A stretch of 40,868 nt of DNA from a virus. Within the stretch, counting starts at the first letter, position 1. Each line of letters starts with the position of its first letter. Made by a program: the position numbers and the translations under genes. Below are positions 9,108-40,868 of the stretch, piece after piece. The stretch is taken from positions 1 through 40,868 of IMG/VR virus record IMGVR_UViG_3300042391_000796, one strand, 5' to 3'. The notes beneath the pieces are model-generated. The model had not been told where the DNA came from. It did no database searches and worked only from the letters and a program-made list of their open reading frames with translations.

Positions 9108-9150
9108 AGTAACTCCCACACCTACCTAGGGCATATTGAACAGGAAAAAA

Positions 9151-21198: not shown

Positions 21199-24100
21199 TT
21201 ACCTCGGGGTGAATGGCTGTTCTTTAACAATACCAATTTCCAGCAACTCATCTGGCGGAACTGGGACACCAATCTTGTTGGCTATTCTTACCATTCTGTT
21301 GTACATAATCCAGCGCTTTTTAGGGTCTGTTTCTGTTCTGTAGTTATCGTAGATTAAGTGAATTTTTTCTTTATCAGCAACGGACTGTGGAGTGTGGAAT
21401 TGAAGTTCAAACTGGGTTCCGTTGGGGTGGGTTACCGCAACGTTGATTCCCTGGTATGGGTCGTCGCCCTTCCAGTAGTTCTTTACTCTTAGGTCATACC
21501 CAAGTTTTTGCATTTCGGCAATAACGTCCTTGACGCCAGCAATGTAATCCGCCGGTTCGTAGGACATCGTGTATCTGACAACATCAGACATTGCTTTTGC
21601 TGCTTTGTCTGCGTCGCCGCCATGCTCGCTGTCTTTTTCTGCGGCTATTTTACGAATTAGAGATTTTAGGGCTTTGAGCCTGAAATCAAGACCTTCCATA
21701 TTCGCCTTGTTTTTTTCAGCAAGGTCAATAAGGAGTTTAGTGATTTCCGCTTCTACTTTTTCTATTTCGGCTCTGTGTTTTGTGGCAGCCTCAACTACAT
21801 CATCAGGATATTCTCCCGGTTTGGTGGTTGGGTTGTCCGGCTCGTTTAATGTGTAGCCCTTGTACTTTTTGACGCGCTTTGGCTTCTTTGAGCGTGGGCC
21901 TTCTCCGCTGGACAATCTTGTTTCAGTCGTACTTGACCTCTTCTTGATGTCGGCCTCAATCGCCATGTCCATCCATCCGGTCCATGTGTCCAGTGCAGGG
22001 TTTTTGTTCGATGCGTCATTGCTAGCAACAAGAGAAGCAATGGGCGTGTGTTTGCCAACTAGGTGTGTCTCTCCAACCGCATTTTCTTCGGTTGCATCTT
22101 CGCCTATTTTTACTCTAAATATATGAATCCCGGTATCTGGCGACCGCTCTGCTCCGTCGCCCCACTCTGTAGAGTCGTTCTCTGCGTATCTTCCTCCATA
22201 GGAACCAAACAAATCTTGTGCCGAAGAGGCTCTGTACGTACTCGTGTACTGGTAGTCATCTGCGACTAATTGGTCAGCAACTTTATCAAGTCTGGATATG
22301 ACTCTATTTTGGTCATCGATGGCCCCATCTAGATTGGCGGACTGCCAGTCGGATGGCGTTATTGTCGAGCGCTCATAGTCAAGGTTACGACGATTAAGGC
22401 CCAGCAGCATTCTTGCTCTTCCCGCCCTGAGTGAATCCCTTGAGTCGGTTGCTGCGATTGCTTCAAAGTCAATAATTCCGTCAGCCTCAATCTGACGTTT
22501 CATTTCTTCCAAAATGGAAAGGTCTCGTTTTGCGTCATCCCGCTTGCTAACCATATACCTAGCTGTCTCGTCGTTTATTTGACGAGTGTTTCCGGCTATT
22601 CCTGCGCCTACTTGCCCTCGTGAACGAGATGGGTCTAGCTGTCCACCTTCCAGTGTTGTTGCTCCGTAGTGAACCACATAAACAGCATCGGGGTCGTTGG
22701 GGTCAGTAAACCTTTTTTCTCTTTCGCTATAAGAAAGCGCCTTTACGTCTGCGCTTCTCTTGCGCAGTTCTTCAGCCATTGCTGGGTCAGCAAGAAGTTC
22801 ATCAATACGGACAGTCTTTTCTGGTTTGCCACCAAGGGTTTCTCCCGAAGAAAGTCTTTCTCCGGTTTGAGAGGCTTCATATGCGTCGTTATCGATTTTG
22901 TACTGCTTCATGTCGGCAAAGTACTTGTCCATTTCCAGCTTGTGTCTTGCTTTGCGCTCGGTAACAACGTTCGGAAGGTTGTCAACGTCAAGTAGATGTT
23001 TTGGAGTGTCTTCTCTTTCCGCTGCACGCTCAAGTATTTTCTGAACAATCATTGCTGATGCTTCTGAGTCTGCGTCCGCTGTATGCCATGCAGTTAGTTC
23101 AACTTCAAGATACTCAGATAATGGTCCAAGGCTATTTGTTGCGTACTTTGTGCCATCTGGGTTGAGAGCAAATGGCCCGTCTCCGCCATCTGCTGTCCAT
23201 CTTGGAAGAAGTTCATCAGCAAGGGCCTTGCTGTCTATAACCCCAGCAGGGGTCCACTCAATTCCTGCGTTCTTTAGTGACTCTTCAAGGAAGCCAAGGT
23301 CAAAAGGCGTGTACTGTCCACCAAGGAGGGCATCAGGGCCAAAGAAGTCAATAAGCTGCTGGTGGCCTTCGTTGACTGAAGATTGACCTGATAACCAGTC
23401 GTTGGTTAGAGGTTTACCGTCAGCATTAAGTAGATTTTCCTTTGACCAGTCGCTAAGTTCTTTTTCGGGGTTAACAAAAACATTGAATCTTTCAATGACT
23501 TTCCCACCCTTCATTTTTACTGCACCAATCTGAACAGGCCTATCGTCCGTAGGACTAAAACCCGTTGTCTCGTAGTCAAAGAAGATGACTTCTTGTTCGT
23601 TGTATCTGTCGAGCATTTCCTGGTATGACTGAACACCACGGAATATGTCAATAAACTTCCCAGTCATTGGACCGTTGTCCGGGTCTCTTGGTCTACTTGG
23701 TTTCTTCGGCCTGTCCTTCTTTGGAGCCCCACCACTGCTCAGACGGGTGCGGGTTACACTTGCGCCCTCCATGATGCGTTCACGGCCGGCATCCGAACCA
23801 GAAACTCTTCTATCTAGTCTTCTTCCGCTAGAGAATGGGTCAACAGGAGCATCGGCGGGGTCAAAATCCCCAAATGGAACATCATCCGAAGCAGAAGGAA
23901 GACTTCCTGCATCGTCTCTTTCGCGAAGCTTCCTAAGCCTCTCACGCCCACGCTCGGCCATATTGCGAGCGCCTTCCCCAACTGCTTCACGGGCCCTCCC
24001 AGCGGCGTCTCCTGCTGCTTCACGGGCTCTTTCAAGGCGGTCTCTGTTCTCTGGCGTATCAAGGGCATCCGTTGTCGCTCTTGCTGCTCTCCCAACGCCA

Positions 24101-27100
24101 CGCTTTAGCGGTTCTGGAAGTCCGTCCGGTGCAATCTTGTCCAGCTTGGAGAGAATAGACTTTGCCTGTTCGTCTGTTATTTTTCCGCGGTCAATGAGTT
24201 CCTGAACAGTTCTTTCTGCAATGTCCCTGCTCCCTCTTCTTCCGAGGTCTATAGCCAGGCGCGTCAAAGCTGCCTCTGGGCCAAATTTAAGAGCAGAGAC
24301 AGTACCAAGAAACATCTCTGCAATTTCTTTTGAATCTTCGTCCTTGCCAATGCGCTCCGAAATCATTTCAATTGCGCGCTCTTTGGCGCGAGCCTTAATT
24401 CCTTTTTTAACCAAACCGGAAGACAGACGCTCAGTATCAAAAGAACCTTCTCTGCCGTATCTACCACTGACGGCAAACTTGTCAAGCTCGTCTTGTCTCA
24501 TTCTGACTCGTGGTCGTGCATCAAAGCTTTCGTGAAGATTCTTTGCAGACTCTGCTACAAGTTTATAAATCTCTTCGTCTGAAGAGTTCTTGATAAAGTC
24601 AGCAAGCACTGGGTCAATATGTGTGAGGTCAAGACCAAGAGAGTCGCCGGCTCCAGGAACATTGTCAAACATTTCACGGAGTGACGTCATTACTTCTGAC
24701 TGCATCTCAGCCATCTGTGTGATTCTTTCTTCGCGTGTCTGTGGAGGTCCGTATATTTCGTTAAAACCGTCATTATTTGATGGCTCAAGAAGGCGGGCAA
24801 GTTGCTCATTACTTGAAGGCATCTGCCCCCATTTGGCACCAGAAGAGAGCCTGTCATTACCCCTACTGCGCATTTCTTCCATTCTCCATCTGCGCTCGTC
24901 TGGACTTAAATCGTCGTCGAAGTCGCCAGTCCCTATGTCGTCATCATTGGTAGCAAAACGACGTGGGGTAGCACGACGTGGTGGTCGCGGTGATGAGTCG
25001 GGGGTAAATCCAGCGCCAGACGCGGCGGTATCTGCTGTTGTGGTAAATCTTTCTTCCTCAATTGGGGAGTTCTTCCTTGGGTCAAACATTCCTTGTTTGC
25101 GACGCTCGGCAATTCTTCTATCAACAATTTTGCTGACTTTTTTCTGAAGACCCTCTCTGTAGGCACGGTCTCCATCGCCGACGCTGTAACCAATCTGCCC
25201 TACTGCTTCCCTGAGTATTTCTTCTGTTCCTTTTTGCTCGCCAACCTCAAGAATAACCGTTCCGTCTTCACGAATCTCAACCAAGTGAAACTTGGATGGC
25301 GGAATCATCATCTTCTGTTCTCCGTTATCGGATTCAGAATAATACGACCAGTCTGGGAGTAAAGCCCTACTACCTTCAGGCACGCGAATTATTATCTTCT
25401 TGCCGTCCGAGAAGTCAGTCTTGTCGGTTACTAGGGTTCCTGTTCCAATTCCGCCAGAACCGACTGGCATGCCGCCGTTGAGTAATTCTTCAACATACTT
25501 TGCGGCGTCGTCATCGCTGTCTATGTACATTTCTACAGTTTGAGACAATGAGGATTTGTCCATTAGTTCAATAAGCGGGATATAGAAGTTTTCTATCTGC
25601 TCTTCAATCGAAGCCTCGTGCTGGTTTAAGCCATCCGGCAAGATTCCGTTTTTCCTAAGGCGTGTATTTCTTCTCTGTATTGCCCTAGCTGCTGCCATTC
25701 CTTCGTCGTGACCAATCATCATGTTGATTGCATCTGTGTCGCCACTGCCCATCTCTACAAAGGCAACTTTTTCGGCTGTCGTTGCACCCTCCATAAGGCG
25801 GGCTCTTTCTTCTGTGGCAAAAGTATGTGCGCCGTTCTTGCCTTTGTGGCTTGTGAACTTCTTTGGTTTTACGCGCGTTTTCTTTTCTTTTTCGGCAACG
25901 GTTTTTGGTTTGCGAATTTCTTTGAACTTTGAATTAAATTCTTTACGTGCATCTTCTTTAGAGACCGAATCTGGCCCTTCGGTTCTTCTCTTTACGTACT
26001 CGTCGCGATACATGTCGCGCATTTCTTTTCTGCGAATACGTTCTGGTCCGTCTACACCTTCTCCGGTGGCAAGTTCTTCCCAGTCTGAATAGTGTTGAAC
26101 AAGTTCTACCAAATCCATGTCTTTGGCACGCTCTGTAGCACCTTCCATGAATTCGCGATATCTGCGCTCTTCTATTTTTTCTGGAGAAAGGGTTCCTCTT
26201 GACTCGCGCTTTTCATCAATCATTTTCTGAAGTTTTTCCATTGCTTCAGGGCTTCTTCTAACGGTAAATCTTTTTACCCATTCGTCAGCAACGGCTTTTG
26301 TTTGTGAATCCAGAGTGTCTCTATCCATAACGCTCATCCAGCTTGGCTCTTCGCCAGCATCGTCGGCTGCATCAAGAAGTTCACTAAGAGCATCAGAAGA
26401 CTCTGTTGAAGAAGCAAGGAAATCAATCATTTCCTCTTCCGTCATTGTTTTGGCAGCTTCTTTTGTAGCTTTTACTTCAGCCCGTTTTTCTTGAGCGTAA
26501 GCCTCTCTTGCGGCAGACATTCTTTCTTCCGAAGCTCGTCCGTCAGCATCAAAAAACTCTCCATCAGCCGAGCCTGCTTCTTCTGCAAGTCTTGCTGCTT
26601 CAGCTTCTGCCGCGTCTCTGTATTCAGCATCTCTTTCGCGTGCTTCTCTGGCTTCACGAACTCTTCTTGAGCCATCAAGATGGTCCTCGTAGATTCTTCT
26701 TGTCAGAATGCTGTCAGAAACGTCTCTATCTATAGTTATTTTTCCAGACGCAATGTCGTCCATGTACTCAAGAGCAGCATCTACGTCGTCTCCAAAAACA
26801 AGACCAGAACTACGTAGTGCCCACAGCTCTGCACCTATTTCGGAAGCGCGCCTCTTGTCTCCATACCCAGCTTTAACATCGTCGATGTATCTACCGGCAA
26901 GAAAAGCTACGACGTCAGCCCTAGAGCGTAGATTGCTCAAAGTCTCAAGGTCTATCCCCATATAGTCTTCGTTAATCATCAACGCCATTAAGTGACTAGC
27001 AGTTAATTCGTCAACGCTGTTTATCTCTATAGGTGTTTTGTCTTTTCTTGGAATTAACAGTGAGCCTCTAGCGTCAAGCTCGCGTTTCATGTGTTCAAAT

Positions 27101-28854: not shown

Positions 28855-28871
28855 GTCGGGTCGTCCTTGCT

Positions 28872-30518
28872 CTAGTTGATTTCTGTTTCGGCTTGAAGCA
28901 GTTCAAACTCAATCAGCGAAGCCATGAGACCTGCGTCCACGGTGTCACTCTTCTTTTCTGTTCCGCCACCCATGACCCAGTTAGACGGAATGAGGCTTTC
29001 TTTGCCCATGTCCTTTGCCCGTTTCATAATGTGACGCTTTGCAGCCTCTTTGTCTTTTGCACGACCATAAGCCTGAATTGCATTACGCAAGTCTGATTCG
29101 CTCTTAATAGGGAAAGAACCGTCGGCCATCGCAGTGCCTTCTTTCGACATTGAGTTGCGTTGGTCGTCAGTAAAAGCGCGCTTCAGTGCAATTTCTGCAG
29201 CCTCTGCTTCAATCTCTTCTGCTTCGTCCATTTCGTACTTGTCGTATCCAAGAACTTCACCATCAAGAGAAACAAAGACGTCGTAAGACTTTCCGTCAAA
29301 GCCGTCAATTTCTACTGCGTAGGAATCGATTCCTTCAAACGAGTCTGGCTCAACACCAATGACATGGCCATCGATTGACTTGACTGCAATTTCTGCTGCT
29401 TCGTGGAACTGAATCATTTCAATTCCACCCTGTGCTGACTTCTGCTCAAATACTGAGTTGTCAAGCTTGTGGAATCCCTGTACTTCGGCGGTTGTTCCGT
29501 CAATGAATACTTCATTTACAGAGCCACTTTTTGTCTGCACATCGATAACGTACATGTCAGCTTTCGCCGAGTAACCAGAGTCAAGAACTTTTCCGTCAAA
29601 CATTTGCTCAGCAATGCCTTCAACATGGAGTAGTCCAGGAAGGCCCTTTTCAGCGATGCATCCACCTGGGCAGTCATCACAAACAGAAGAGCCACCTGGG
29701 TAAGCTTTTCTTTCAATTGCGCAAAGATATCCACGAGTGCCAAAGTCTTCCGACTTCATCCCCATTGACTGAATGCGCTTCTTGCGCATTTTTTCAAGCA
29801 TCATTTGCTTTTCGGCTTCTTCGTCGTCAGGCATGTCCTCGGACATTTCGTCCTCGGCCATTTCTTTTCCTTTAAATCCGTTTGAAGTTGAAGCAAGACC
29901 GCGAGCCTTGCGCTTCTTGTTGATTGTCGCTAGAAGTTCTTTTTCTTCTTCGGTCATGTCTTCTTCCCCGTCTTCGCCTTCCTCGTCTTCATCATCTTCA
30001 ATTTCGATGCTCATTCCCTTGAAACCGTTTGTTGTTGCCGCAAGACCGCGGGCCTTACGCTTCTTATTGACCTGCGCGAGAAAAGCCTTCTCTTCTTCAT
30101 CAAGAGATTCGTCATCTTCGAGCATGTCTTCGTCTGGCATTGCGTCCATACCCTTGGTAGCTTTCTTGCGCTTCTTGAGAAGCATCTGAAGGAGACCTTT
30201 TTCTTCTTCGGTTAGGTCTTCGTCTTCTTCTTCTGGCGCTTCAAGCTGTTCTGGCTCCATGCCGGCATCTTCCATCGCAACAGGTTCTGCTGGACGAGGA
30301 GCAGGTGTTGCTCTATCTTCGTCGTCCATTTCCTCTTTTTCTGTATCTTCTGCGTCATCCACGGGCACCATCTTCATCTGAACCGGCATAGCTCCGCACT
30401 TCCCACACACTTTTGCGCCAGGAGTAAATCCGCATGCGGAAACATCTGCGCCCTTTGCGCACTTCAGAACTTCGCCCTCAGTGCTAACGCTAAGGCTATT
30501 GTTCATTTCATCGTTCAT
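28872..30518 (-). CDS. Acidic scaffold-like virion protein with PepSY-like and DUF6582-like regions, 548 aa
   Basis: It starts with an ATG at 30518 (AGGAG upstream). Residues 20-41 contain four cysteines (C20, C29, C38, C41), a possible zinc knuckle. Residues ~52-250 are very acidic with three repeats of an E-E-E-K-x-L-L...K-K-R-K helix, two of them closely alike (141-168, 190-217). A Cys-rich patch (266-287) precedes two PepSY-like halves (~297-350 and ~370-432). The C-terminus (~445-514, TDDQRNSM..AMADGSFPI then DLRNAIQAYGRAKDK and RAKDMG) is a phage motif I recall as DUF6582. Scaffolds of HK97-type phages are acidic, helical and encoded between protease and capsid, as here. The role as scaffold or cargo adaptor is inferred. 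Confidence 0.72.
   Translation of the reverse strand: MNDEMNNSLSVSTEGEVLKCAKGADVSACGFTPGAKVCGKCGAMPVQMKMVPVDDAEDTEKEEMDDEDRATPAPRPAEPVAMEDAGMEPEQLEAPEEEDEDLTEEEKGLLQMLLKKRKKATKGMDAMPDEDMLEDDESLDEEEKAFLAQVNKKRKARGLAATTNGFKGMSIEIEDDEDEEGEDGEEDMTEEEKELLATINKKRKARGLASTSNGFKGKEMAEDEMSEDMPDDEEAEKQMMLEKMRKKRIQSMGMKSEDFGTRGYLCAIERKAYPGGSSVCDDCPGGCIAEKGLPGLLHVEGIAEQMFDGKVLDSGYSAKADMYVIDVQTKSGSVNEVFIDGTTAEVQGFHKLDNSVFEQKSAQGGIEMIQFHEAAEIAVKSIDGHVIGVEPDSFEGIDSYAVEIDGFDGKSYDVFVSLDGEVLGYDKYEMDEAEEIEAEAAEIALKRAFTDDQRNSMSKEGTAMADGSFPIKSESDLRNAIQAYGRAKDKEAAKRHIMKRAKDMGKESLIPSNWVMGGGTEKKSDTVDAGLMASLIEFELLQAETEIN
29868..30098 (-). repeat. Internal 28-residue duplication in the acidic protein
   Basis: Residues 141-168 and 190-217 share EEEK-x-L-L/F-A-x-(V/I)-N-KKRKARGLA-x-T-x-NGFKG, with only a few differences. 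DNA identity is partial, mostly synonymous. A third, weaker copy (EEEKGLLQMLLKKRKK) lies at ~104-119. Confidence 0.85.
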
Positions 30519-30551
30519 ACTAGATGACTCCTAATTCGTAAGTACCGTAAA

Positions 30552-30580
30552 ATTATACTCTAAACGTATCATTTGAGTAA
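30552..30580 (-). promoter_or_regulatory. Promoter before the acidic scaffold-like gene
   Basis: On the minus strand TTACTC is followed after exactly 17 bases by TATAAT, a perfect -10 hexamer. It lies in the 88-base gap between the protease polyprotein and the acidic gene, with the start codon about 34 bases downstream. It would allow genes after the protease, including polyprotein 2 and the capsid, to be expressed more than the protease. Confidence 0.6.
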
Positions 30581-30606
30581 GTATCGCGGTGTATGTGTGT
30601 TGATTG

Positions 30607-33600
30607 TTATTTTTTTCTTCTGCTCAGACGCTCAAGGAAGATTGCTGTTTCTGCAATTCTTTCCCAACTTCTATTGACAAGACCCGAAGAATGTTTTTTG
30701 TCATCAAGAGACTTAACCAAGAACGGGGCATTGAACGGGTCGCTGCTCCACTCAATGTAAGCATCTTTGACTTCATACAATGGGTCATTGAAAATCTGCA
30801 AACTCTTTACATCGACTGCCGACTCAGCGTCCGATGCGGTAAGACCCATCTCTTTCAAGACTGCTTGCATCTGTGCGATAAGCATATTTGATGCTGCTTG
30901 AGCTTTTATGGAAGCTTCCTGAAGGGCGTTCGGCTCTTCACGAAGAACCTTCAGCCAGCTGGCCAAGTAATGGGCGTGGTCTTCTCTTGGCTCGGCAGAC
31001 AGGTCGAACATGGCCAACAAGAATGCTGAACCAAATTCCGCAACGAGTTCTTCTCGTGCGTAATCGGGTGAACCGAACTGGTTCATGTTTTTTCTGTCAA
31101 GCCTTGACGAGTGTCCAGTCCAGTGGACCAGTTCGTGGGCAAGGGTTCCGTAATAACCTTCTGGGGATTTGAACAGTTCAAATGGAGGCATAACAATATG
31201 GTCTTCACGTGGGGAGTAGTAAGCCCTACTGCCGTCTCCGGTGTTGATTGTTGCGCCAATCTCTTTGATTGCGTCCTCAAGTTTCCCGACTCTTTGTTCG
31301 GGAGTGAGGGCGTCCGCAGGAGCCTTTAAGAACTCTTCACGGTCAATTCCTTCAATCTGGTCAAAGTTAAATACATGAGCGGTAGAGAAGAAAGTCCCCT
31401 TTGACTTGCGAACTTTTACGCCATTGTCGTCGATTTCCTCCCCAAACATTTGTCTCGGGATGAGAATGATGGTTGCCTTTTCGCCCTTTTTAACGCTTCC
31501 GCCGAGCTTCTTCCATTGCTGGAATCCTGCCCACTGAGGAGTTGTATAGCCTTTTTCTTCCGCTGCAAGCATCAGAGCAAACAGGTTTCCACCTGAGTAC
31601 ATGTTCTTTGTTGAAGCATTTCTTGGAAGGTTTCCGGCTCTATGCCACGGAGCATCCCACTTGCCGCCCTCTTTTTGTGACTTTTCAATCATGTTTATGA
31701 GATGGCTTGTGAGGTTTTGGTAATACTCGTCTGCTTTTCCTGAAGAAAGTCTTGTACCTTCTGGTACTCCAAAATCAATCCCTGTTACTGGAACGGCTTT
31801 CTTTACGCCTCCAGCTTTGGTGATTGCAGCCTCAAGGGCAGTAAGGTTTTCATTGGTGCTGTTCCTATAAGAGGATGGCGAGCGTTTACTCCATCCACGA
31901 TTGTTGCTTAGAATTTCGTCAACTTGGGAATAGAGAGTTCCCATTCTTGCATCTTCGTTGCCGATACCCATTTGGTAGGCGTCGTCAAGCTTTTTGGTTG
32001 CTTTACTAATCTTTTCATCGATTGCCTCAACCAAAGGCTGTCCATCTTCTTCTCCGTACCTCTTGATTACATCAGCGCGCTCTTTTCTTAGCTTCGCAAT
32101 CTTGTCAAGAGCGTCTTCAGCTTCTTCGATGGCTGCATCCATGACATCTTCAGCTTCAGAGAATTTCTCTTCAATTGCATCAATGTAATCATCAAGTTCA
32201 ACCAACTTGTCTACAAGTTCCGCAGCTTCGTCTTCTGGGATGCCGGCCTTTTTCATTTCGTCTTCAAGGTCGTAAACACTAAAGCCATTTATTGCCGAAG
32301 TATCTACGTTAAGAGTTTCTGCTATTTCTGCTCTCGTCTTAACTGCTTTTTCAAAGTCCTCTATGTTTTGACCAGGAGTTTTCCTTATTCTTACACCTTC
32401 TGGAATTGTTGCACTAACCGCAGCATCTCGCATGTTGGTTGGGCTCAGTTTTCCATCTGCATCTCTGAATGCTGGCATTGACTGGATGTTTCCGCTTGAA
32501 AGTCGAGCGACATTGCCTTCTCTACGAGCGGTAGCGTCGTTCATCGCATCGGCTCTTCTGCTTGAAGAGCTTCTGGCAATAAATCTCTGACCTGAAGACA
32601 TTCTTGGCGAACCAGGAACCGCAGAACTAAAGTTGTTTACATATCCACCAGCTTCGTCCTTGGGGAACAGTTCATCTTGGCTTATTTCTGGATATCCAGC
32701 TTGTGTGAGTTTTTCGTTAACGAGACCAAGAACTTCAGAAATCTTGTCGTCGCCAATCATTCCGTCTTCTTTCATGTCTCCGGCAATCGAGACACGTCCT
32801 TCTATTACTCGTTTTTGTTTATCTGGGTTACGGCCAAAAGCGGTAGTCATTGCATCAGTGATGATTTTGCTTGCACCGGCAACGCCATCCTTATTCATTT
32901 TGTCTTTGATTCTTATCAAAGCCGCATCAACAAGCATTCTTGAGTCATATTCTGCAGCAAGTGAGTCAAGCCTTGGGTCTCCAAGAGAAGCAAGTGCTTC
33001 TTTCATGTTCTTGAATTTTCCGGACGTAATCAAAGCATGCATAACCTCATCGGGAATTGCCATTCTCTTTGCGTCCACTACTGTCTGGTCTCTGAACACA
33101 CCATCGTTTCCAATGGTTTTCAACCCTGCTTTTTCTCTGATTTCATTAAGAGCAACAAGAAGTTTTTTGACTTCTGCGTTAGTAACGTTTTCACCCTCTG
33201 AATCTCTTTGGATACCAAGGATGTCCATCATGTTTGCCGCACTGACACCATGAGCACGCTTAATCCACTCTTTCGCAAATTCTTTATCTGCTCTTGCTGT
33301 TGTTTGCCCAACCCTTGCTTGTGAAGGCATTCTGGTTGGCTCTAGTTGTTCTGACCTGGAGAGCTTTTTAGGTGTTGCTATAAATTCAGAATCCACAGTT
33401 GGGTTCTTGAACGAGCCAGCGCGGGCATCCCACTTAGGGTTAGAAGCAACGGCATCACCATTGAAAAACTCCACAGGAGATGTGTATACGGGTTCTGGTG
33501 GGTTCTTGCCACGCTTTACTTCGGCATCAAACTCAGCCCTAGAGAGACCTTCCCACTTGACGTCAGACCATGTAACCATGTCGTTCTCGTCAAGGTCAAA

Positions 33601-36600
33601 TTCAGGGGTTGCTACATCACTGTGGCGCACCCATTTAGGAGCGCCATCAAATCCCCAAACTCTGGCAACATCATTCAGTCCACCGACGCTTTGGTCGTAT
33701 TGCTTGTTCCTGGACAACTTGTCAAACATGTCAGCGGCTGTTCCGCTTCCAATGTAGACAGGCTTTCCGTCAAGCATGTCTTTAGCACTGCTTTCTGGTA
33801 TTCCAAGAATTGTTGCAATACGTTGAGCGTCTCCAATTTCGCGGAGCGTTCTAATTGCATCGTCATCGTCTACTTCAATGAAGTCGAGAAGTTTTCCTGC
33901 ATCAACGGGCCAACCGTTGTCGGCGGAGTATTCCATGTCTGGGTTTGCAATAATCTTTTCTGCTGCTGCAGTGTTGAGAACATGCGACTCTTTACCAGAA
34001 GGAACGTCTCCAAGTATTCCTGTAGCTTCAGAAGGAATAATTGCAGTACTTGGGTCCGAATGGTAAGTTCTCATTGTTGCCCCAACCTGCTCCTCGCGGT
34101 TGTACTTATCGCTACCCGTTGGAGGTGGTCCCTTTACTTCACCAGAGGAAAGTCTTCTTTGAAGTCTTGAGCCGGACTCTCCCTCTGGTGCAAAACGTGC
34201 CCCAGAAGAAAGCCTGTTTTTTTCTTTTCCTGCGTTGCGATACTCCCTGGAGAGAATTAGGGCTTCTCTGTCAAACGCATCAGCCTTCCCGTTTTTGAAC
34301 GGGTCTAACTCTTTGTAAAGTTTTTGTGCTTCATTAAAAGTGTCTTCGGTTACCTCGCTCTTAGACACGCTGATTCTTGGTCCGAACAAGTCCAACCCAT
34401 CCGAAGCGTTTGTGACCTGGTGGCCTTCGATGCCAAACGTTCCTTCAACGATTATTGGTTTGTCAAGTTTTTTACCGTCGGCGTCGTGGGTGGCAAGAAC
34501 CACAAGCCCCCCGTCGGTAGACACACCCGTTCCACCGGGATAGTCTTCATCTCTTTCAAACTCTTCGTATTCAGGCGCATTACCGTCGACAATAATTCCG
34601 TAAAGTTTGTTTTCTCCTCCATCGGCAACCGATACCACCTTGCCGATGTGTGCCGTCCCATCTTCCGGGGAGTGTTCGTCGTCCTCTACGGGCGTTTCGT
34701 AGTCATTTTGTGGGTCGTTGTAAATTCCGCGAGAGCTATTTCCTTGGAATATTCCCTCTTCGCCATACTGGGCCATAGTTTCCTGCTCAGAAGAACCAAA
34801 AATACCCATGACGTCTTCGTCGGACTCTATGTTTCTGTCAAGCGTATGGCCAAGTTCGTAGAGTTCAGTGCCTTCCGCCCAGTCAACTACTGTACCTTTA
34901 AATTCGTCAGACTCTTGATACTGGCCTCGACCGTTGTACTTTACGTACTTTCTTCCAGGCACCAAGTTTCTCCAAGAATCTATGTCTGGGCGGATATAGA
35001 AACCTTTAAGTGGTCCGTCTTTTATCTCTCCATCATCTCCAATCTCGGGCATTTTCCAGCCCTCTGGAGTGGCAATGTTGTACCTGTTGAAGTTGTTAAT
35101 ACCTGAAGAAAGTCTTTCGTCGGAAGAAAACTCGTCCACCGAAGGTCCTTGACGACGCTTGCCTGGAACTGTTTGGGCACGAAGCTTATTGCCGTCAGCA
35201 AAATTTTGACGGTCCTCATCGCTCCATGGGCGTTGTCCACGAGCACGACTGTTTTTGCCGCTGCCCTGTCTTCTTGCGATGCTTCTTCCAGAAGAGAACC
35301 TATCGCCATCTGGGTTTGCGGCTCTCCAGGCTTCTGACTCAGCATCACGTCTGGCCATATATCTTTCAAAATCAGCATCCCATGCTGCCCTGGCTGTCTC
35401 TGGAGTTACGGAGCTGTCCCACCAGAATGGGTCATCCATTTCTTCATTTGAGGCACCAAAAAACTGACCTCTTTCTCTTGCCCAGTCTCTTGCAAATTCC
35501 ATAGCTGAGTCAATAGAGTCGAAATCTTCATCGCTTAATTCTCCGCCAATGTCCCAGTCTGGTTCATCGTCGTAGTAACCCTCATAATCGTCCCATACGA
35601 GTCTTCCGAGCGCGAATTTTCCATTCGGAATTCCGTTCTCGTCGCGCAACTCATCAATAGTGATTCGTTGGTCTCTTCCGCCTTCAAACCTGTCATAGAT
35701 GTCAACAAACAATTTTTGTCCGTCGTCAACCTGAACCCACTTGCCATCCTTCTTTATGTGACGTGGAGATTTATCTTCAACGAAACCGTACTTAACTGTC
35801 TTCCCGCGTGGACGCGAGCCATGGCCTGAAGACAGTCTTTGATTTCCTGAAGATGGGGAGTCGGGGTGTAGTTGAGGGAATTCCTGAAGGTACCCATCAA
35901 TATCTAGTCCGCCGTCTTCCAGAACGCCAACCATGCTTGGATTGTTGTCTGAAAGTCTTTCTTTAATTCCATTGAACACCGTAAGTTGTTCCGTGTCCGA
36001 CATGTCTCCAAATAGGCGAGCATCTCCATTGGCTAGGTCCTGTGTAAAGGCTGTGGTTTGCTCCGCCATATCATTATAGAAATTGGATATGCGCTCTTCT
36101 GAGGTATTCCCCTTGGCACCGGAGGACAGTCTGTCCCTCCATGTCTCTTCGTCCATGTAAGCGGCGTAATCTGCAGCTTCTTCAGGTGTCATATCAGCAA
36201 ATCTGTCAGTGACCGTTTGTGCACGAGCAAAGTCTTGTGCCATTGCTTCCATTTCAGCATCGGTCATTTCGGGCCGCATGGATGCATACAGTTCGTAGTC
36301 GTCTATTGATTCACTAACGTCTTTTTTAACTGCATCAAGAAGAGGTTCAATATGTTGCGCCCTGACATTTAGTGCGTAAGCCAAATCTTCCGCAGTCATG
36401 TCTTCGTAGTCGTTTATGTTGTTCGCTATCAAATGAGAGAATATTGCTTCTTTTAGGTCTTCTGGGTTGTCGTAGGACCTAATGAAGTTGTCTTTTTTGC
36501 TTCCGCGAGTAGCACCGGAAGAGAGTCTTGGCATTTCGTCAAGTGAAGGACCAGAGTTACTGTATCTTCCACCCCAGCCAAGACCTGCTTGCTGCAGCCA

Positions 36601-39600
36601 TGCTTGGTAAGCAGGGTCGTCGCCACCATATGGACCGAATTCAGGTCTGTTTACATACAAGAATGAACGAACTGCGTTCATGTATGACTCTTTGAAGTTG
36701 TCCGAGTACTGGTCAGAATTTATAACGTTATCGATGTCGCTGGTAATTTGCGGGGTCTTGGCCATGTACCAGGACTTGTAATCAACAGTGCCCTTCTTGG
36801 CAAAAAAGTCTTTCTTTGAAGGCTTCCCTGGCTTGTTGAAGAATTGCATGAATTGGTCATTTAGATAGTCGTCTTCAAAACGCAGTTTTGCTACGTTCGT
36901 AGCAAACTCTCGTGCACGGTACCAGTCTTCACTTTGCCACTTTGGGTCACCGTTGTACATTGGTATTTCCATAAAGAAGCCGTTGTTCTTTATAAAATTT
37001 GCAACAATTTCTTCATAGGCGTCACGGGCTGCTTTTTCTTCAGGCAAGTCATAACGGAGCGGATTGCGCTCGGCGTGACGCATCTCTCTGAGACCTGACG
37101 CACCCTTTTTGTCGAAGTCCATACCAGAAGAGAGGCGCTGTGCTTTGTTGTTATTCTCCAGTTTATTTTTTCTGAGGCGTATTTGGGTCTGTAGCGCATC
37201 AGATAGAAGCTCTTCGCTTCCGAGTATGTCGGCTATTTCTTCAATAGTGGAAGGCATATCGTAGCTTCCGTCATTTGTTTCATCTAGAATTTCAAGCGCT
37301 CTATTGTAGAGAAACATCTCTTCAACGTATTCTTGCTCTTCGTCAGGGTTGTAGAGGGGAGGGTTTCCCCAAACTTCAACATCGCGAGTATCAAGAAGTT
37401 CGAACATCTCGTCGTTCAAGAACTTGTTGTAAATAACGTTATTTAGTTCTTCATCGCTGTCTACCTTGAATATTTTTTTAAGCAGTTCTTTTTGTGCTTC
37501 TTCATCTCCGGATTCAAGTGCAGCCTCAAGAGCAGTAAGACGCTTCTCAATATTTGCTACCTGTTGGTCTGTAAGCAGTAGTTTTCCAGAAGAAAAACGT
37601 TCCACTCCACCATCGCCGTCTTCTGAGTCGTCGTATGAGTCGTCCCTATTTCGTCTGTCGACCTTGGCCCAGATATACCCAGTAAGCAAACCCGCTAGGG
37701 CTGGGTTGTCAGCAATCGTTTGCAGCAATCCAGAAGAGAACCTATCATCCCTGTCTCTCCATGTTTCTTCGTCCTGCCATGCTGCATAGTCGGCAGCTTC
37801 CTCGGGAGTCATATCAGCAAGATTTATGTTGCTTCCTGTGTCAATAGTTTCTTTTTTGGGAGCAGGCTGTTTCCCTATTGGGTTTGTCGCGTTTTCTCCT
37901 CTTGCCCTATCTGCTTCTCGCTGCTTTGCAAGCTCACGAGCGTATTCAGCATCATCCCTACCAGAAGAAAGCCTTGTAGCCTTCTTTGGGGCGTTTGACA
38001 CTTTAGGGGCTTTAGCCTTTGGGGTCTTTGGAGTCTTTGGCCCGTCGATTGAATTAGGGCCATCCGGTGTTGGGTCCGGCTGGGACAGGGACATGCCACG
38101 ACCATCGGTAAGGCCTTCGCCTACAATGCCGTTATTGTTCCTGTCCGGTGCGTTTTTTGGGTCCCACATCGTTCCATCACTGAGTCTTACTACAGCTCCC
38201 CGTGAACCAATACCGCGACTTCTTGATGCGAGGTTGGGATTCGTATCTCTTCTATTGCGCCCACTGCCGATATTTGGTCTATCTACAGCTCTGTCAACCA
38301 TGTTGCCGATGCTGCGAAATACGCCCTTTGTAGCGATGTCCATTGCATCAAGGAATTCACTATCAAGCGACTTGACAATGATTCCATCTTCGGTAACCGT
38401 TGCGTCAACTCTGTAGTAATCAAGAACTGGGTCAATGGCTTGCTTGACCTGAAATGCGTTTTCAATATCGACAGGGATTATGTACGTTGACTTCTCTTCA
38501 ATAATCTTCTCAAGGTTACTGATGACGCTATTCAGGGTTGAGGTGTCAACTTGCTGAGCAGGTATTTGCTGACCAAAACCACCCCCCCAGCTTGTATCGT
38601 CAAAAGAGATTAGCGACTTTCCTGCGTCGAACATATCTGGATTGCTGTATCCAGCAACTTGAGGCATAGCGCCTGGCATGTCGGGAACGCTTGATTCTGG
38701 GTTCATCTGCATGTTGATTTTTTCTGGCTTACCAAACATGAACTCGCCGTTCATGAAGTGGTAAGGAAGCTTGTATGTGCTTGAAACTCCATCAGAGGTA
38801 ATTCTGTCGAAAACAACATTGTTCTCAGCTGCCGAGCGAACAATTATGTTCGAGCCGGTTCTGGCAACAAGTTCTCTTCTTATTGCTACAAGCATTGGGT
38901 TCTCTGGCATTGATGGGACTTCTGGCTTAACAGCATCTCTTGGTGCCTGAGTTTGCATTGGCTTTGGTGCAGACGGCATCCCTGGTCCGCCGGAAGGCAT
39001 CCCCACGGGCATGTTCATGGGCATTGTTGGTCCGCATTTTTCGTCAGTTGCTACTGCCATTGTCTTGAGAGCATCAAGTACAGAAGAGAGTTCGTTTACG
39101 TTAAGACCATCAATGGTCGGCTGCTCGTTTACTAAAACTGACGAAGACTGGTCTTCGGACTTTATTGAAATTGTTCCTGTCAGCTGATTTGCACCATGAA
39201 GGACTGGAGAAACTTCGTAAAGTTCAACTTCGTACAAAATATTTGCTTGCATTTGGGGGTCGAACTTGGCGTTAATAGTCTTGTAGCCAATTGACCACTC
39301 TTGTTCTTCGCCAAAGAATGCCACGTTTGCAAAAGCTTCACGGCCCTTTTCCGACTTCAAGTTGAACTGAACACGAGCATACAAACCGCCAATACCGGCA
39401 GCTTTCATTTTGCCAGGAAGACGAGGGTCGCTAGGCGGAACCTCATACATATCAAGGACTTTACCGATTGGGTCGTTCCAGTTGTGACCCCAAACAACGC
39501 GAGGCTTGCGTCTAATCAGGCTCTTACCAAAAGCTCCAGGGGCACAAACATCGCCTACTGAGTCTTTGTTTCCAATACCTGCGACAAAACACTCAACGAT

Positions 39601-39681
39601 GCCTTCGGCCTCGTCAAGATTGACCATCCCTTGCGGTGCGGCCTTGTACTGAATGTCAGAATTTTTTTTCGAAGAGGGCAT
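30607..39681 (-). CDS. Prohead protease-led giant polyprotein 1 with ArdC-zincin C-terminus, 3,024 aa
   Basis: I start at the ATG at 39681 (AAGGAG at four bases). Residues 1-~175 are an HK97-family (U35) prohead protease: VWGHNWNDPIGKV (H66), EWSIGY (S130) and ELYEVSPVLHGAN. In HK97 this serine protease trims the capsid and scaffold inside the prohead, then itself. It continues into a Met/Pro-rich linker and then many spaced modules: a duplicated DMTPEEAADYAA element, a hydrophobic peptide (652-699), helical and acidic segments, a coiled coil (~2450-2600), and at 2649-3000 an ArdC N-domain plus zincin (HELVHWTGHSSRLDR, 2849-2863). Fifteen R-[L/F/M]-S-S-G-type motifs separate these modules. 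Normal HK97 proteases have ~200-250 residues, so this is a fusion of about 12 times that size. Cleavage at the motifs is inference. Confidence 0.9.
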   Translation of the reverse strand: MPSSKKNSDIQYKAAPQGMVNLDEAEGIVECFVAGIGNKDSVGDVCAPGAFGKSLIRRKPRVVWGHNWNDPIGKVLDMYEVPPSDPRLPGKMKAAGIGGLYARVQFNLKSEKGREAFANVAFFGEEQEWSIGYKTINAKFDPQMQANILYEVELYEVSPVLHGANQLTGTISIKSEDQSSSVLVNEQPTIDGLNVNELSSVLDALKTMAVATDEKCGPTMPMNMPVGMPSGGPGMPSAPKPMQTQAPRDAVKPEVPSMPENPMLVAIRRELVARTGSNIIVRSAAENNVVFDRITSDGVSSTYKLPYHFMNGEFMFGKPEKINMQMNPESSVPDMPGAMPQVAGYSNPDMFDAGKSLISFDDTSWGGGFGQQIPAQQVDTSTLNSVISNLEKIIEEKSTYIIPVDIENAFQVKQAIDPVLDYYRVDATVTEDGIIVKSLDSEFLDAMDIATKGVFRSIGNMVDRAVDRPNIGSGRNRRDTNPNLASRSRGIGSRGAVVRLSDGTMWDPKNAPDRNNNGIVGEGLTDGRGMSLSQPDPTPDGPNSIDGPKTPKTPKAKAPKVSNAPKKATRLSSGRDDAEYARELAKQREADRARGENATNPIGKQPAPKKETIDTGSNINLADMTPEEAADYAAWQDEETWRDRDDRFSSGLLQTIADNPALAGLLTGYIWAKVDRRNRDDSYDDSEDGDGGVERFSSGKLLLTDQQVANIEKRLTALEAALESGDEEAQKELLKKIFKVDSDEELNNVIYNKFLNDEMFELLDTRDVEVWGNPPLYNPDEEQEYVEEMFLYNRALEILDETNDGSYDMPSTIEEIADILGSEELLSDALQTQIRLRKNKLENNNKAQRLSSGMDFDKKGASGLREMRHAERNPLRYDLPEEKAARDAYEEIVANFIKNNGFFMEIPMYNGDPKWQSEDWYRAREFATNVAKLRFEDDYLNDQFMQFFNKPGKPSKKDFFAKKGTVDYKSWYMAKTPQITSDIDNVINSDQYSDNFKESYMNAVRSFLYVNRPEFGPYGGDDPAYQAWLQQAGLGWGGRYSNSGPSLDEMPRLSSGATRGSKKDNFIRSYDNPEDLKEAIFSHLIANNINDYEDMTAEDLAYALNVRAQHIEPLLDAVKKDVSESIDDYELYASMRPEMTDAEMEAMAQDFARAQTVTDRFADMTPEEAADYAAYMDEETWRDRLSSGAKGNTSEERISNFYNDMAEQTTAFTQDLANGDARLFGDMSDTEQLTVFNGIKERLSDNNPSMVGVLEDGGLDIDGYLQEFPQLHPDSPSSGNQRLSSGHGSRPRGKTVKYGFVEDKSPRHIKKDGKWVQVDDGQKLFVDIYDRFEGGRDQRITIDELRDENGIPNGKFALGRLVWDDYEGYYDDEPDWDIGGELSDEDFDSIDSAMEFARDWARERGQFFGASNEEMDDPFWWDSSVTPETARAAWDADFERYMARRDAESEAWRAANPDGDRFSSGRSIARRQGSGKNSRARGQRPWSDEDRQNFADGNKLRAQTVPGKRRQGPSVDEFSSDERLSSGINNFNRYNIATPEGWKMPEIGDDGEIKDGPLKGFYIRPDIDSWRNLVPGRKYVKYNGRGQYQESDEFKGTVVDWAEGTELYELGHTLDRNIESDEDVMGIFGSSEQETMAQYGEEGIFQGNSSRGIYNDPQNDYETPVEDDEHSPEDGTAHIGKVVSVADGGENKLYGIIVDGNAPEYEEFERDEDYPGGTGVSTDGGLVVLATHDADGKKLDKPIIVEGTFGIEGHQVTNASDGLDLFGPRISVSKSEVTEDTFNEAQKLYKELDPFKNGKADAFDREALILSREYRNAGKEKNRLSSGARFAPEGESGSRLQRRLSSGEVKGPPPTGSDKYNREEQVGATMRTYHSDPSTAIIPSEATGILGDVPSGKESHVLNTAAAEKIIANPDMEYSADNGWPVDAGKLLDFIEVDDDDAIRTLREIGDAQRIATILGIPESSAKDMLDGKPVYIGSGTAADMFDKLSRNKQYDQSVGGLNDVARVWGFDGAPKWVRHSDVATPEFDLDENDMVTWSDVKWEGLSRAEFDAEVKRGKNPPEPVYTSPVEFFNGDAVASNPKWDARAGSFKNPTVDSEFIATPKKLSRSEQLEPTRMPSQARVGQTTARADKEFAKEWIKRAHGVSAANMMDILGIQRDSEGENVTNAEVKKLLVALNEIREKAGLKTIGNDGVFRDQTVVDAKRMAIPDEVMHALITSGKFKNMKEALASLGDPRLDSLAAEYDSRMLVDAALIRIKDKMNKDGVAGASKIITDAMTTAFGRNPDKQKRVIEGRVSIAGDMKEDGMIGDDKISEVLGLVNEKLTQAGYPEISQDELFPKDEAGGYVNNFSSAVPGSPRMSSGQRFIARSSSSRRADAMNDATARREGNVARLSSGNIQSMPAFRDADGKLSPTNMRDAAVSATIPEGVRIRKTPGQNIEDFEKAVKTRAEIAETLNVDTSAINGFSVYDLEDEMKKAGIPEDEAAELVDKLVELDDYIDAIEEKFSEAEDVMDAAIEEAEDALDKIAKLRKERADVIKRYGEEDGQPLVEAIDEKISKATKKLDDAYQMGIGNEDARMGTLYSQVDEILSNNRGWSKRSPSSYRNSTNENLTALEAAITKAGGVKKAVPVTGIDFGVPEGTRLSSGKADEYYQNLTSHLINMIEKSQKEGGKWDAPWHRAGNLPRNASTKNMYSGGNLFALMLAAEEKGYTTPQWAGFQQWKKLGGSVKKGEKATIILIPRQMFGEEIDDNGVKVRKSKGTFFSTAHVFNFDQIEGIDREEFLKAPADALTPEQRVGKLEDAIKEIGATINTGDGSRAYYSPREDHIVMPPFELFKSPEGYYGTLAHELVHWTGHSSRLDRKNMNQFGSPDYAREELVAEFGSAFLLAMFDLSAEPREDHAHYLASWLKVLREEPNALQEASIKAQAASNMLIAQMQAVLKEMGLTASDAESAVDVKSLQIFNDPLYEVKDAYIEWSSDPFNAPFLVKSLDDKKHSSGLVNRSWERIAETAIFLERLSRRKK
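30682..31737 (-). other. ArdC antirestriction domain with zincin (polyprotein 1)
   Basis: Residues 2649-3000 sit between motifs at 2644-2648 and 2996-3000. The N-part has the ArdC signature: W-x-A-P-W, LPRNASTKNMYSGGNLFAL, GYTTPQWAGFQQWKKLGG, VKKGEKATIILIP. The zincin has HELVHWTGHSSRLDR (H2849, E2850, H2853) and YAREELVAEFGSAFL with a candidate third ligand. ArdC proteins bind single-stranded DNA and protect incoming DNA from type I restriction, which is when a virion-delivered copy would be useful. Confidence 0.9.
36118..36195 (-). repeat. Second copy of DMTPEEAADYAA element (polyprotein 1)
   Basis: Residues 1163-1188: DMTPEEAADYAAYMDEETWR then DRLSSG. It is matched by residues 623-651 (37729-37815): the same 12 residues, then WQDEETWRDRDDRFSSG. 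DNA is clearly related but diverged at wobble positions. Both copies end in a processing-type motif, so they may be a recognition or packaging tag for the upstream fragment. Confidence 0.85.
37729..37815 (-). repeat. First copy of DMTPEEAADYAA element (polyprotein 1)
   Basis: Residues 623-651, the partner of the element at 36118-36195. It closes the 77-residue segment after the first motif. Confidence 0.85.
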
Positions 39682-39780
39682 GTGGCTCCTTGTGTATTCT
39701 TCGATAATAAACGACAAAGACTGCACCAAACGGCAAGTATTAGGGTTTTTCGGTTTGTTTACTAAAACCAAATACTAAAA

Positions 39781-40868
39781 CTATACTGTGATGTACTTTC
39801 CGTATGTCCATGCCCGACGAGCTTCTTCTTCGGCAATTTCAGGAATTCTCTTTGCAAGCACATTTGTGTACAAAGAAACAATGTTCGACCTGAACGCTCC
39901 GGCTCTCTGGTCTTCATCGGAAATGTTCATCGAAGAAAGCATTAGTGATGTTATTTCATCCGTCAAATCCTGGTTGAGGCTTTTCATTCTCGACATTTGA
40001 GATTCAACTTGAGCAATAATGTCTGCTTCTGTATTTGAATTCTTTGCGGACTTCTTACCAACAGGAGAAGAGGCCTTCAGGGATTCTTTAACAATTGCAG
40101 TCACAACAGGCTTGATGTCTTCATCAAACTGCCTGTCCCATGTCTCCGTCGAGAGAACTGAAGGGATATCAAGAGTTCCAGCAAACAAAGCCTTCTTGGC
40201 CTTTGCTCCACTCGACTTCTCTAGAACAACCCTTTGCTGTCTTTCAAGAACTCTTTCCATGCTTCTGACGAGAATTTCTTCCCATCTTTCCATCTCTAAT
40301 TTCTGAGAACTGTTTTCAGCCTCAAGAGACTTTGTCTCAAACTCGGAAGATTCAGCGCTTGTTGCACCCATAGGTAAAGGCTCTGCGCCAGTCATCATGC
40401 CGGGAGGCATTCCAGGAATCGGAGACTGAGCCAACTCGCCACCCGGAGGTGCGGTTGAGCCGACTTCTGCAAGTGCTCCTGCCATTGTGTTTGGGTCCAC
40501 AGGCGGTTCCCCGGGTGCTGGAGGCATGCCTGGCATTGCAGGGGCACCTGGTGGCATGCCTGGTACTCCTGGCTGTCCTGGGGCTCCAGGGACCTGAACC
40601 TGAGATGGGTCTGGCATCTTCTTCTTTGTGTTGGAGATTGGAATCAGGTTTGGGTTAGCCAGCAACGAGTCAGCCAAATCACTTTCGGTCTCTTTACGAC
40701 CTGAGCCAATTCGGTATTCGTTGTTGCTGATTAGACCTGCGTTAAACTCATCCATCAAGTAGCGATGACGCTCCTGTTCGTAGAGCATCAAAATGGGCAC
40801 TTGGTCCACGTTGAAGTCAACGTAGTTGTCTACATCGAGTTCGTCTAAGGCGCGAGACAAAATTTCCA
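39781..40868 (-). CDS. Portal protein, C-terminal part (5' end cut by window edge)
   Basis: The frame stays open to the window end, so the TTG at 40860 is not a start and the N-terminal portal core lies outside. The visible part begins in a portal-like C-terminal helix (ILMLYEQERHRYLMDEFNAG, then LISNNEYRIG). A collagen-like Gly-Pro region follows (PGAPGQPGVPGMPPGAPAMP and on), then a helical domain whose end, RIPEIAEEEARRAWTYGKY, resembles the N-terminal helices of Mu gpF-type minor head proteins. EKSSG (40207-40221) resembles the polyprotein motif. Directly upstream of the protease gene, it fits the portal-protease-capsid order. The assignment rests on the tail and context only. Confidence 0.68.
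   Translation of the reverse strand, partial: EILSRALDELDVDNYVDFNVDQVPILMLYEQERHRYLMDEFNAGLISNNEYRIGSGRKETESDLADSLLANPNLIPISNTKKKMPDPSQVQVPGAPGQPGVPGMPPGAPAMPGMPPAPGEPPVDPNTMAGALAEVGSTAPPGGELAQSPIPGMPPGMMTGAEPLPMGATSAESSEFETKSLEAENSSQKLEMERWEEILVRSMERVLERQQRVVLEKSSGAKAKKALFAGTLDIPSVLSTETWDRQFDEDIKPVVTAIVKESLKASSPVGKKSAKNSNTEADIIAQVESQMSRMKSLNQDLTDEITSLMLSSMNISDEDQRAGAFRSNIVSLYTNVLAKRIPEIAEEEARRAWTYGKYITV

Follow-up and report, generated by a model that had tools for sequence, protein, structure and literature searches.

Herpesvirus assemblin is located at the N-terminus of its precursor and cleaves at hydrophobic-x-Ala|Ser sites, two of which lie in the scaffold precursor. Several phage systems are close to the locus described here. 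Polyvalent proteins are giant multidomain proteins that combine ArdC, MPTase, nuclease, and other effector domains and are predicted to enter the host together with the DNA; in the excerpts of Iyer et al. 2017 (PMC5512222) on which we draw throughout, release by embedded peptidases and a processing role for assemblin-like peptidases were proposed, and polyvalent proteins were likened to the polyproteins of eukaryotic RNA viruses. According to similarly partial text of the respective papers, capsid, portal, and ejection proteins of SPN3US are cleaved behind an A-X-E motif by its protease gp245 (PMC10052503), the Dar antirestriction proteins of P1 are packaged in the head with DarA and DdrB reported to be proteolytically processed (PMC9024508, PMC5512222), and a jumbo-phage survey mentions prohead peptidases and polyvalent proteins separately (PMC7824862). 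Polyvalent proteins, the idea of peptidase-driven release, and cleavage of ejection proteins by a prohead protease are already known. Here, we analyzed a virus record of 40,868 bases (IMG/VR record IMGVR_UViG_3300042391_000796; its full length is referred to as the window), in which two giant open reading frames (ORFs), A and B, share a repeated motif, R[LFM]SSG, and A begins with a prohead protease. We consider it highly probable that the phage's own prohead protease recognizes these motifs, which lie in spacers, and cleaves there and that about 21 products would be freed.

Compared to these systems, the window has shared as well as distinct features. In the excerpts of PMC5512222, the assemblin-like peptidase of polyvalent proteins is always C-terminal, whereas it is N-terminal in the window, and no cleavage motif, interprotein code, or switching is named there. 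A phage protease and a short motif are common to SPN3US and the window, with cleavage in the latter proposed from sequence; however, the identified cuts in SPN3US remove N-terminal propeptides, those of the protease itself excepted, as opposed to about 20 intermodule sites here (PMC10052503). Moreover, unlike in SPN3US, the protease is fused to its proposed substrate, the major capsid protein (MCP) has no site, and proteases that are 72 to 97% identical to that of the window go with different motifs. For P1, DarB is packaged by means of a localization signal, and the available parts of the two sources report no repeated code (PMC9024508, PMC5512222). A search of the open-access literature, with most subscription papers and bioRxiv preprints outside it, identified neither a cleavage code common to phage polyproteins nor switching of such a code, in line with a preliminary description of this DNA, which had regarded a shared processing code as undescribed.

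A peptide motif repeated in two giant ORFs

ORF A (30607..39771, minus strand) has 3,054 codons if it starts at the in-frame TTG at 39771 and 3,024 if it starts at the ATG at 39681, and ORF B (21199..28854, minus strand) has 2,551 codons; the lengths of 3,024 and 2,551 codons given in the preliminary description were reproduced with A counted from the ATG. Residue and site numbers of A count from the TTG, except for His66 and Ser130 of the protease, which count from the ATG. Using megablast, ORF A had no match among phage records. A contains 14 copies of R[LFM]SSG, and B contains 5 copies of RLSSG and a PFSSG variant, giving 19 strict motifs and 20 [LFM]SSG sites, and not the 21 copies counted previously. 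All sites are on the minus strand. In A, RLSSG is found at residues 600 (site 1; 37960..37974), 879 (site 4; 37123..37137), 1082 (site 5; 36514..36528), 1214 (site 6; 36118..36132), 1312 (site 7; 35824..35838), 1553 (site 9; 35101..35115), 1853 (site 10; 34201..34215), 1873 (site 11; 34141..34155), 2423 (site 13; 32491..32505), and 2674 (site 14, directly ahead of ArdC; 31738..31752), RFSSG at residues 677 (site 2; 37729..37743), 725 (site 3; 37585..37599), and 1491 (site 8; 35287..35301), and RMSSG at residue 2390 (site 12; 32590..32604). In B, RLSSG is found at residues 1335 (site B1; 24838..24852), 1476 (site B2; 24415..24429), 1704 (site B3; 23731..23745), 2000 (site B4; 22843..22857), and 2313 (site B5; 21904..21918), and PFSSG at residue 1673 (23824..23838).

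Based on residue composition, 0.155 copies of R.SSG and 0.01 copies of RLSSG are expected in A and B, compared to 19 and 15 observed, respectively, and the repeats first noticed in the two frames are real. Outside A and B, [LFM]SSG occurs once in 13,366 amino acids (aa) of stop-to-stop ORFs of 100 to 2000 codons on both strands, spurious ORFs included. Because the 20 motif sites have 19 different 15-base spellings, conservation acts on the peptide, as the preliminary description had concluded from codon variation. A DNA-level pattern for the motif gave five reverse matches and one forward match on the window and was over-restrictive and of no use. We also observed a near-duplicate segment, DMTPEEAADYAA...EETWRDR, at about A 650-680 and 1190-1218, immediately ahead of the motifs at 677 and 1214; this perhaps reflects duplication of a module together with its site.

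Both ORFs carry multiple unrelated effector domains on one polypeptide, as do polyvalent proteins. In addition to the Peptidase_S78 domain described below, Pfam matches identified in A an ArdcN domain (A 2682-2801; 31369..31728, minus strand) and an MPTase-PolyVal zincin domain (A 2831-2954; 30910..31281, minus strand). B has an RNase_T/DnaQ-like exonuclease domain (B 1757-1936; 23047..23586, minus strand), based on Pfam RNase_T and structure comparison, and a RelA-like/small alarmone synthetase domain at about B 2352-2524 (21283..21801, minus strand; range from a PHROG match), so that the ArdC, exonuclease, and RelA-like domains named earlier were all recovered. The best structural match of the B C-terminus is the exported small alarmone synthetase 8vx3 (template modeling score 0.76 by target), and this region also resembles the type VI secretion system effector Tas1 (6ox6); these resemblances suggest that a nucleotide-signaling enzyme may be among the cargo. 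The giants of relatives additionally carry UvrD, WYL, KTSC, NUDIX, DnaJ, and Zeta toxin domains.

Lineage-specific codes in related genomes

Relatives were collected in scans with the capsid protein and four proteases, with the best 80 matches kept per scan. The capsid scan yielded 80 loci and the protease scans 292, among which 149 protease domains are distinct; the protease scans comprise the best 80 each of 541, at least 600, 521, and 582 matches, and some contigs are present twice. For 30 records, 20 to 40 kb around the protease were taken, and G018 (9 kb) was left out. In ORFs of 780 or more aa of these records and the window, we searched blindly for over-represented short patterns with one locally shuffled control per record. 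In 30 of the 31 records, window included, the top pattern was a motif repeated in the giants (referred to as the code of that genome). The code motifs scored 18.6 to 98.8 and the shuffled controls at most 16.5, with 27 records scoring over 25. The top patterns were RLSSG in the window, RFSSG in G003, GLSSG in G009-G011 (13 to 17 copies), KLSSG in G012, G013, and G015 (5 to 11 copies), SLSSG in G037 and G044 (8 copies), GLxSxG in G020, GFxSxG in G048, ISGRM in G033 and G046 (12 to 13 copies), VSGxM in G034, and ITGxM in G023. A survey of protease loci with few or no LSSG added LGSRS, GFxSST, RxGLASxS, RGMASR, SLRSSG, GMRS, GPVGxM, and EAGMS, and many other such loci in that survey had no pattern. 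Code labeling covered 119 of the 149 distinct proteases (those with 1000 or more aa of ORF), and a code of 1 of 11 types was assigned to 72 of these 119 loci in a nonblind classification, the patterns having been made after the survey of loci with few or no LSSG. Proteases that are 72 to 97% identical to that of the window go with other codes, and RLSSG is therefore one variant among many; the idea that RLSSG might be exclusive to genomes with this protease, raised as a check in the preliminary description, did not hold.

Most relatives fetched have a similar succession of ORF sizes, i.e., portal, A, C, B, a 670-aa protein, and capsid protein. Five genomes (G023, G033, G034, G045, and G046) have a short protease ORF (785 to 881 aa) together with further large ORFs, the largest of which have 2,459 to 3,927 aa in G023, G033, G034, and G046 and 1,353 aa in G045. 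In the 3,927-aa giant of G046 (L226:8203-19983), ISGxM motifs are interspersed with NUDIX, DnaJ, and Zeta toxin domains, and one site is doubled (ISGRMGGISGRMA). Among further contigs, L442 has a weak GLxSxR pattern (five copies), and L445 had no code in the blind pattern search.

For the four coarse codes, there is little overlap between genomes. In ORFs of 1000 or more aa, LSSG genomes have 346 copies of LSSG versus 4 to 8 of each of the three other codes (145,407 aa), and ISGxM genomes have 60 copies of ISGxM versus 1 to 3 of the others (35,089 aa). The motif density in LSSG genomes is 2.38 per 1000 aa in giants of 1000 or more aa versus 0.158 in 412 other ORFs. Codes are also common to separate giants of a genome. 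Knowing which residue precedes [LFM]SSG in A allows prediction of the preceding residue in downstream giants of that genome (match 0.56 versus 0.25 permuted; p = 5e-5; 18 genomes), where the downstream giants are B plus, for a few genomes, additional ORFs of 1000 or more aa. The 18 genomes derive from a hand-made list of 20, of which G005 (no downstream giant) and G032 are out; the permutation omits the near-duplicates G001, G013, and G044 and keeps both G017 and G021, and the comparison of preceding residues omits G032, G041, G048, and genomes with other codes. In G033, ISGxM is found in four giant ORFs. Because the code is common to different giant proteins, the motif must have a reader that acts on every one of these proteins. 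These data agree with the earlier proposal of a shared protein-level code linked to the prohead protease, in that relatives keep the arrangement and their giants switch code together.

The motifs are placed between domains. In six chosen giant ORFs, 0 of 75 motifs are located inside domain ranges versus 12.0 expected, with ranges that include some Pfam matches below cut-off and the PHROG range for the RelA-like domain and with only the best stretch counted for a five-copy KTSC. In a model of B 1352-2551, all five motifs are in segments with a predicted local distance difference test (pLDDT) score below 50, as are 389 of the 1,200 residues. Both results bear out the earlier placement of the motifs in flexible interdomain spacers. 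For ArdC, we considered matches that start near the beginning of the domain, have enough upstream sequence, and differ there (n = 30). A code motif is located at −30 to +8 of the domain start in 28 of these instances and in all 30 if LASG is allowed; random windows from ArdC-bearing proteins contain a motif in 10.3% of cases, and the ArdC domains contain 0 code motifs in 8,109 aa. The motif ahead of ArdC matches the coarse code of the genome ([LFM]SSG, GFxSR, or LGSR), and its preceding residue may deviate, as with RLSSG in G013, a KLSSG genome. In G001 and G017, there is no motif between the N- and C-parts of a UvrD-like helicase, and going upstream from the C-part, the first motif is 530 to 558 residues away, ahead of the N-part.

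Five cultured phages out of 957 records with a protease match were checked in part, and no repeated code was found in GMA6, Cantare, and DalanDe (about 24.5 kb each), in five ORFs of Gray, or in gp48 and gp52 of Gilgamesh. Single sites are present in GMA6 (RFSSG in a 343-aa ORF and ALSSG in the tape measure region) and DalanDe (VLSSG in a 164-aa ORF). Gilgamesh gp48 (MN234216.1 31978-45852; L448 7979-21853) is an unannotated 4,624-aa giant upstream of a protease with 34% identity, and its top blind score is 13.3 versus 13.5 for its shuffle; thus, a giant phage protein does not give such a motif by default. This observation in a Streptomyces phage bears on the possibility that the motif has no reader and is a mere recurrent flexible linker or a recombination joint for domain shuffling. 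Modules are indeed shuffled, with exonuclease relatives in different ORFs of different genomes, and disorder-promoting residues are enriched around LSSG motifs (0.673 versus 0.587). However, a neutral linker would not preserve a single pentapeptide, let alone in 19 DNA spellings among 20 sites, and would not account for the giants of one genome switching code together. We therefore regard a linker without a reader as extremely improbable.

The prohead protease as candidate reader of the code

The N-terminal domain of A (A 58-201; 39169..39600, minus strand) was identified as Peptidase_S78 by Pfam, alignment, and fold. It matches PF04586 with 37.4 bits (cut-off 21), and comparison of the protease model with T4 gp21, the nearest solved fold, gave a Z score of 10.1 (root mean square deviation 3.2, 126 aligned), supporting the earlier assignment of a prohead protease to the start of the first protein. 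Herpesvirus proteases had Z scores of 5.5 to 8.3; with Foldseek alone, they ranked first, none below E 0.001. The protease, thus, has the same fold class as herpesvirus assemblin and, if the register proposed below is right, shares a small P1 residue with it, but many sites in enzyme polyproteins stand against two in the herpesvirus scaffold precursor. His66 and Ser130 are invariant in 58 of 58 aligned rows and presumably form the catalytic pair of this family. A code is present at 46 of 49 loci with a protease ORF of 2000 or more aa, 16 of 38 with 1000 to 2000 aa, and 10 of 32 with less than 1000 aa, these classes including ORFs cut by contig ends. On the protease tree, the code of the 72 loci changes 13 times compared to 39.7 times in 100 shuffles. 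Because the prohead protease heads A, belongs to a fold whose members cleave head proteins at short motifs, and has a tree that the code follows, it is the natural reader of the motif.

Based on these observations, we propose the following model. Cleavage of both polyproteins by this protease in the maturing head had been put forward in the preliminary description, and this interpretation is supported in part. A and B would be polyproteins consisting of enzyme modules on flexible spacers, and the protease at the N-terminus of A would recognize the motif in each spacer. It would act on B in trans and on A either in trans or in cis, and the assembling head is the most plausible place for this. 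If every strict site were cut, about 21 products (15 from A and 6 from B) would result, including ArdC, the exonuclease, and the alarmone synthetase-like domain; from the position of A and B among head genes, we infer that these products are carried in the virion and injected. In most lineages, the site would have a skeleton of a bulky hydrophobic residue, one variable residue, and then Ser or Gly, and the flanking residues would form a lineage-specific code that changed repeatedly, with the sites across the giants of one genome changing together. In agreement with such a skeleton, 9 of the 11 code pools share hydrophobic-x-Ser/Gly on one register, the fixed positions arising by construction since the pools are defined by the code patterns themselves. 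By analogy to the SPN3US protease, which cuts after A-X-E (P3-P2-P1), we place the cut, as a guess, after Ser/Gly, i.e., L-S-S|G in the window and F-A-S|R-G, L-R-S|x-G, and I-S-G|R-M elsewhere. It is also likely, although we hold this with somewhat less confidence than cleavage itself, that a lineage of tailed phages uses a polyprotein strategy with up to about 20 sites per genome in which protease specificity and sites co-evolve as a repeatedly switching private code, with 11 types under the nonblind classification and with nearly exclusive protease-site pairs that occur naturally on proteases 72 to 97% identical to that of the window.

If this model is correct, it would explain how one or two genes suffice for a phage to deliver many separate enzymes as infection begins, and tailed DNA phages would join the viruses that use self-processed polyproteins. 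With sites readable from sequence, the products of each genome would become predictable and unannotated giants could be resolved into their individual modules. A code that switches repeatedly while the protease is conserved would represent a natural experiment in the evolution of protease specificity together with its substrates, and code-protease pairs would be a possible source of orthogonal laboratory proteases.

A different protease within A, the zincin MPTase-PolyVal, could instead cut the polyproteins, as Iyer et al. proposed autoproteolysis by MPTase for polyvalent proteins in the excerpts cited above (PMC5512222). This domain is found in A and in 22 of 30 relatives. In the remaining 8 records, which may be incomplete, none was detected, and 7 of these have a code (G009, G010, G020, G023, G033, G034, and G046). 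Because the records were selected by the prohead protease, its presence in all of them is not independent evidence. On balance, cleavage by MPTase appears very unlikely.

Alternatively, each motif could be a docking or capsid-targeting tag that attaches its module to a surface inside the head (capsid, portal, or scaffold) for packaging and stays uncut. For P1, the cited excerpt describes a capsid localization signal in the 250-kDa DarB (PMC9024508). Moreover, the head proteins are co-inherited with the code: the trees of protease, MCP, portal, a 667-aa protein, and C have equal numbers of code changes (3 coarse and 10 fine; 29 genomes, with the MCP of G005 missing), and therefore, tree shape cannot single out the protease over another co-inherited reader. 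In none of 29 genomes, one of them the window, does the MCP (13869..15224, minus strand; downstream of A and B) carry a strict code motif, which fits docking; under cleavage by the prohead protease, for which the MCP is the usual substrate, the protease may be specialized on cargo. Single motif-like sites do occur in other head proteins, namely, in the portal of G026 (ALSSG) and in the 667-aa protein of G009, G012, and G013 (LSSG/FSSG with another preceding residue) and of G033 and G046 (ISGxM). A tag would be required once or a few times per protein and not between so many domains, the motifs mark domain edges in spacers of low pLDDT, and prohead-protease sites, for example A-X-E (P3-P2-P1), look similar to the common skeleton. 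Docking without cleavage is, therefore, improbable in our view.

In addition to the tied trees and the MCP without a motif, several observations weigh against cleavage by the prohead protease at a code. First, the blind scores of G015 (24.3), G020 (23.6), and G029 (18.6) are near or below that of a non-code Cys pattern (23.0), the only pattern that the search yielded in G045, and Gray, which lacks a code, reaches 16.9. Second, no code was found in 47 of the 119 loci, 3 of which have a protease ORF of 2000 or more aa, and L443 and L444 (relatives at 73% and 66% identity) have ORFs of 1,969 and 1,670 aa, respectively, without a code. Third, the residue ahead of the motif is not uniform in G017, G021, G035, and G040, and GPVGxM and EAGMS deviate from the hydrophobic skeleton. 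Fourth, the AlphaFold2 model of the S78 domain is of moderate quality (pLDDT 73), and the first motif is located some 400 residues past the protease domain. Finally, one observation in favor of the protease, namely, that its columns 47, 137, 139, and 150 vary by code group, is confounded with ancestry. Column 47 is invariably Ala in the 30 LSSG loci, and the remaining 42 loci have Leu, Ile, Val, or Met there; column 150 is Tyr, Phe, or His in LSSG loci and Lys or Arg in the remaining 42. We note that L443 and L444 are contigs binned as a Gammaproteobacteria metagenome-assembled genome and that their protease ORFs are short (438 and 444 aa).

Neighboring genes

Upstream of A, the portal protein (39781..40860, minus strand) is partial at the end of the record. 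Protein C (28872..30518, minus strand) is a 548-aa protein between A and B that has no strict motif and has homologs in 30 of 30 relatives fetched; four Cys are located within its N-terminal 45 residues, and it also contains a segment repeat (VNKKRKARGLAATTNGFKG and INKKRKARGLASTSNGFKG). Because the best matches of the MCP are in Brevibacterium and Gordonia phages, our guess is that the host is an actinobacterium. The largest plus-strand ORF of the window encodes a ribonucleotide reductase (9136-11076) and has the opposite direction to A and B.

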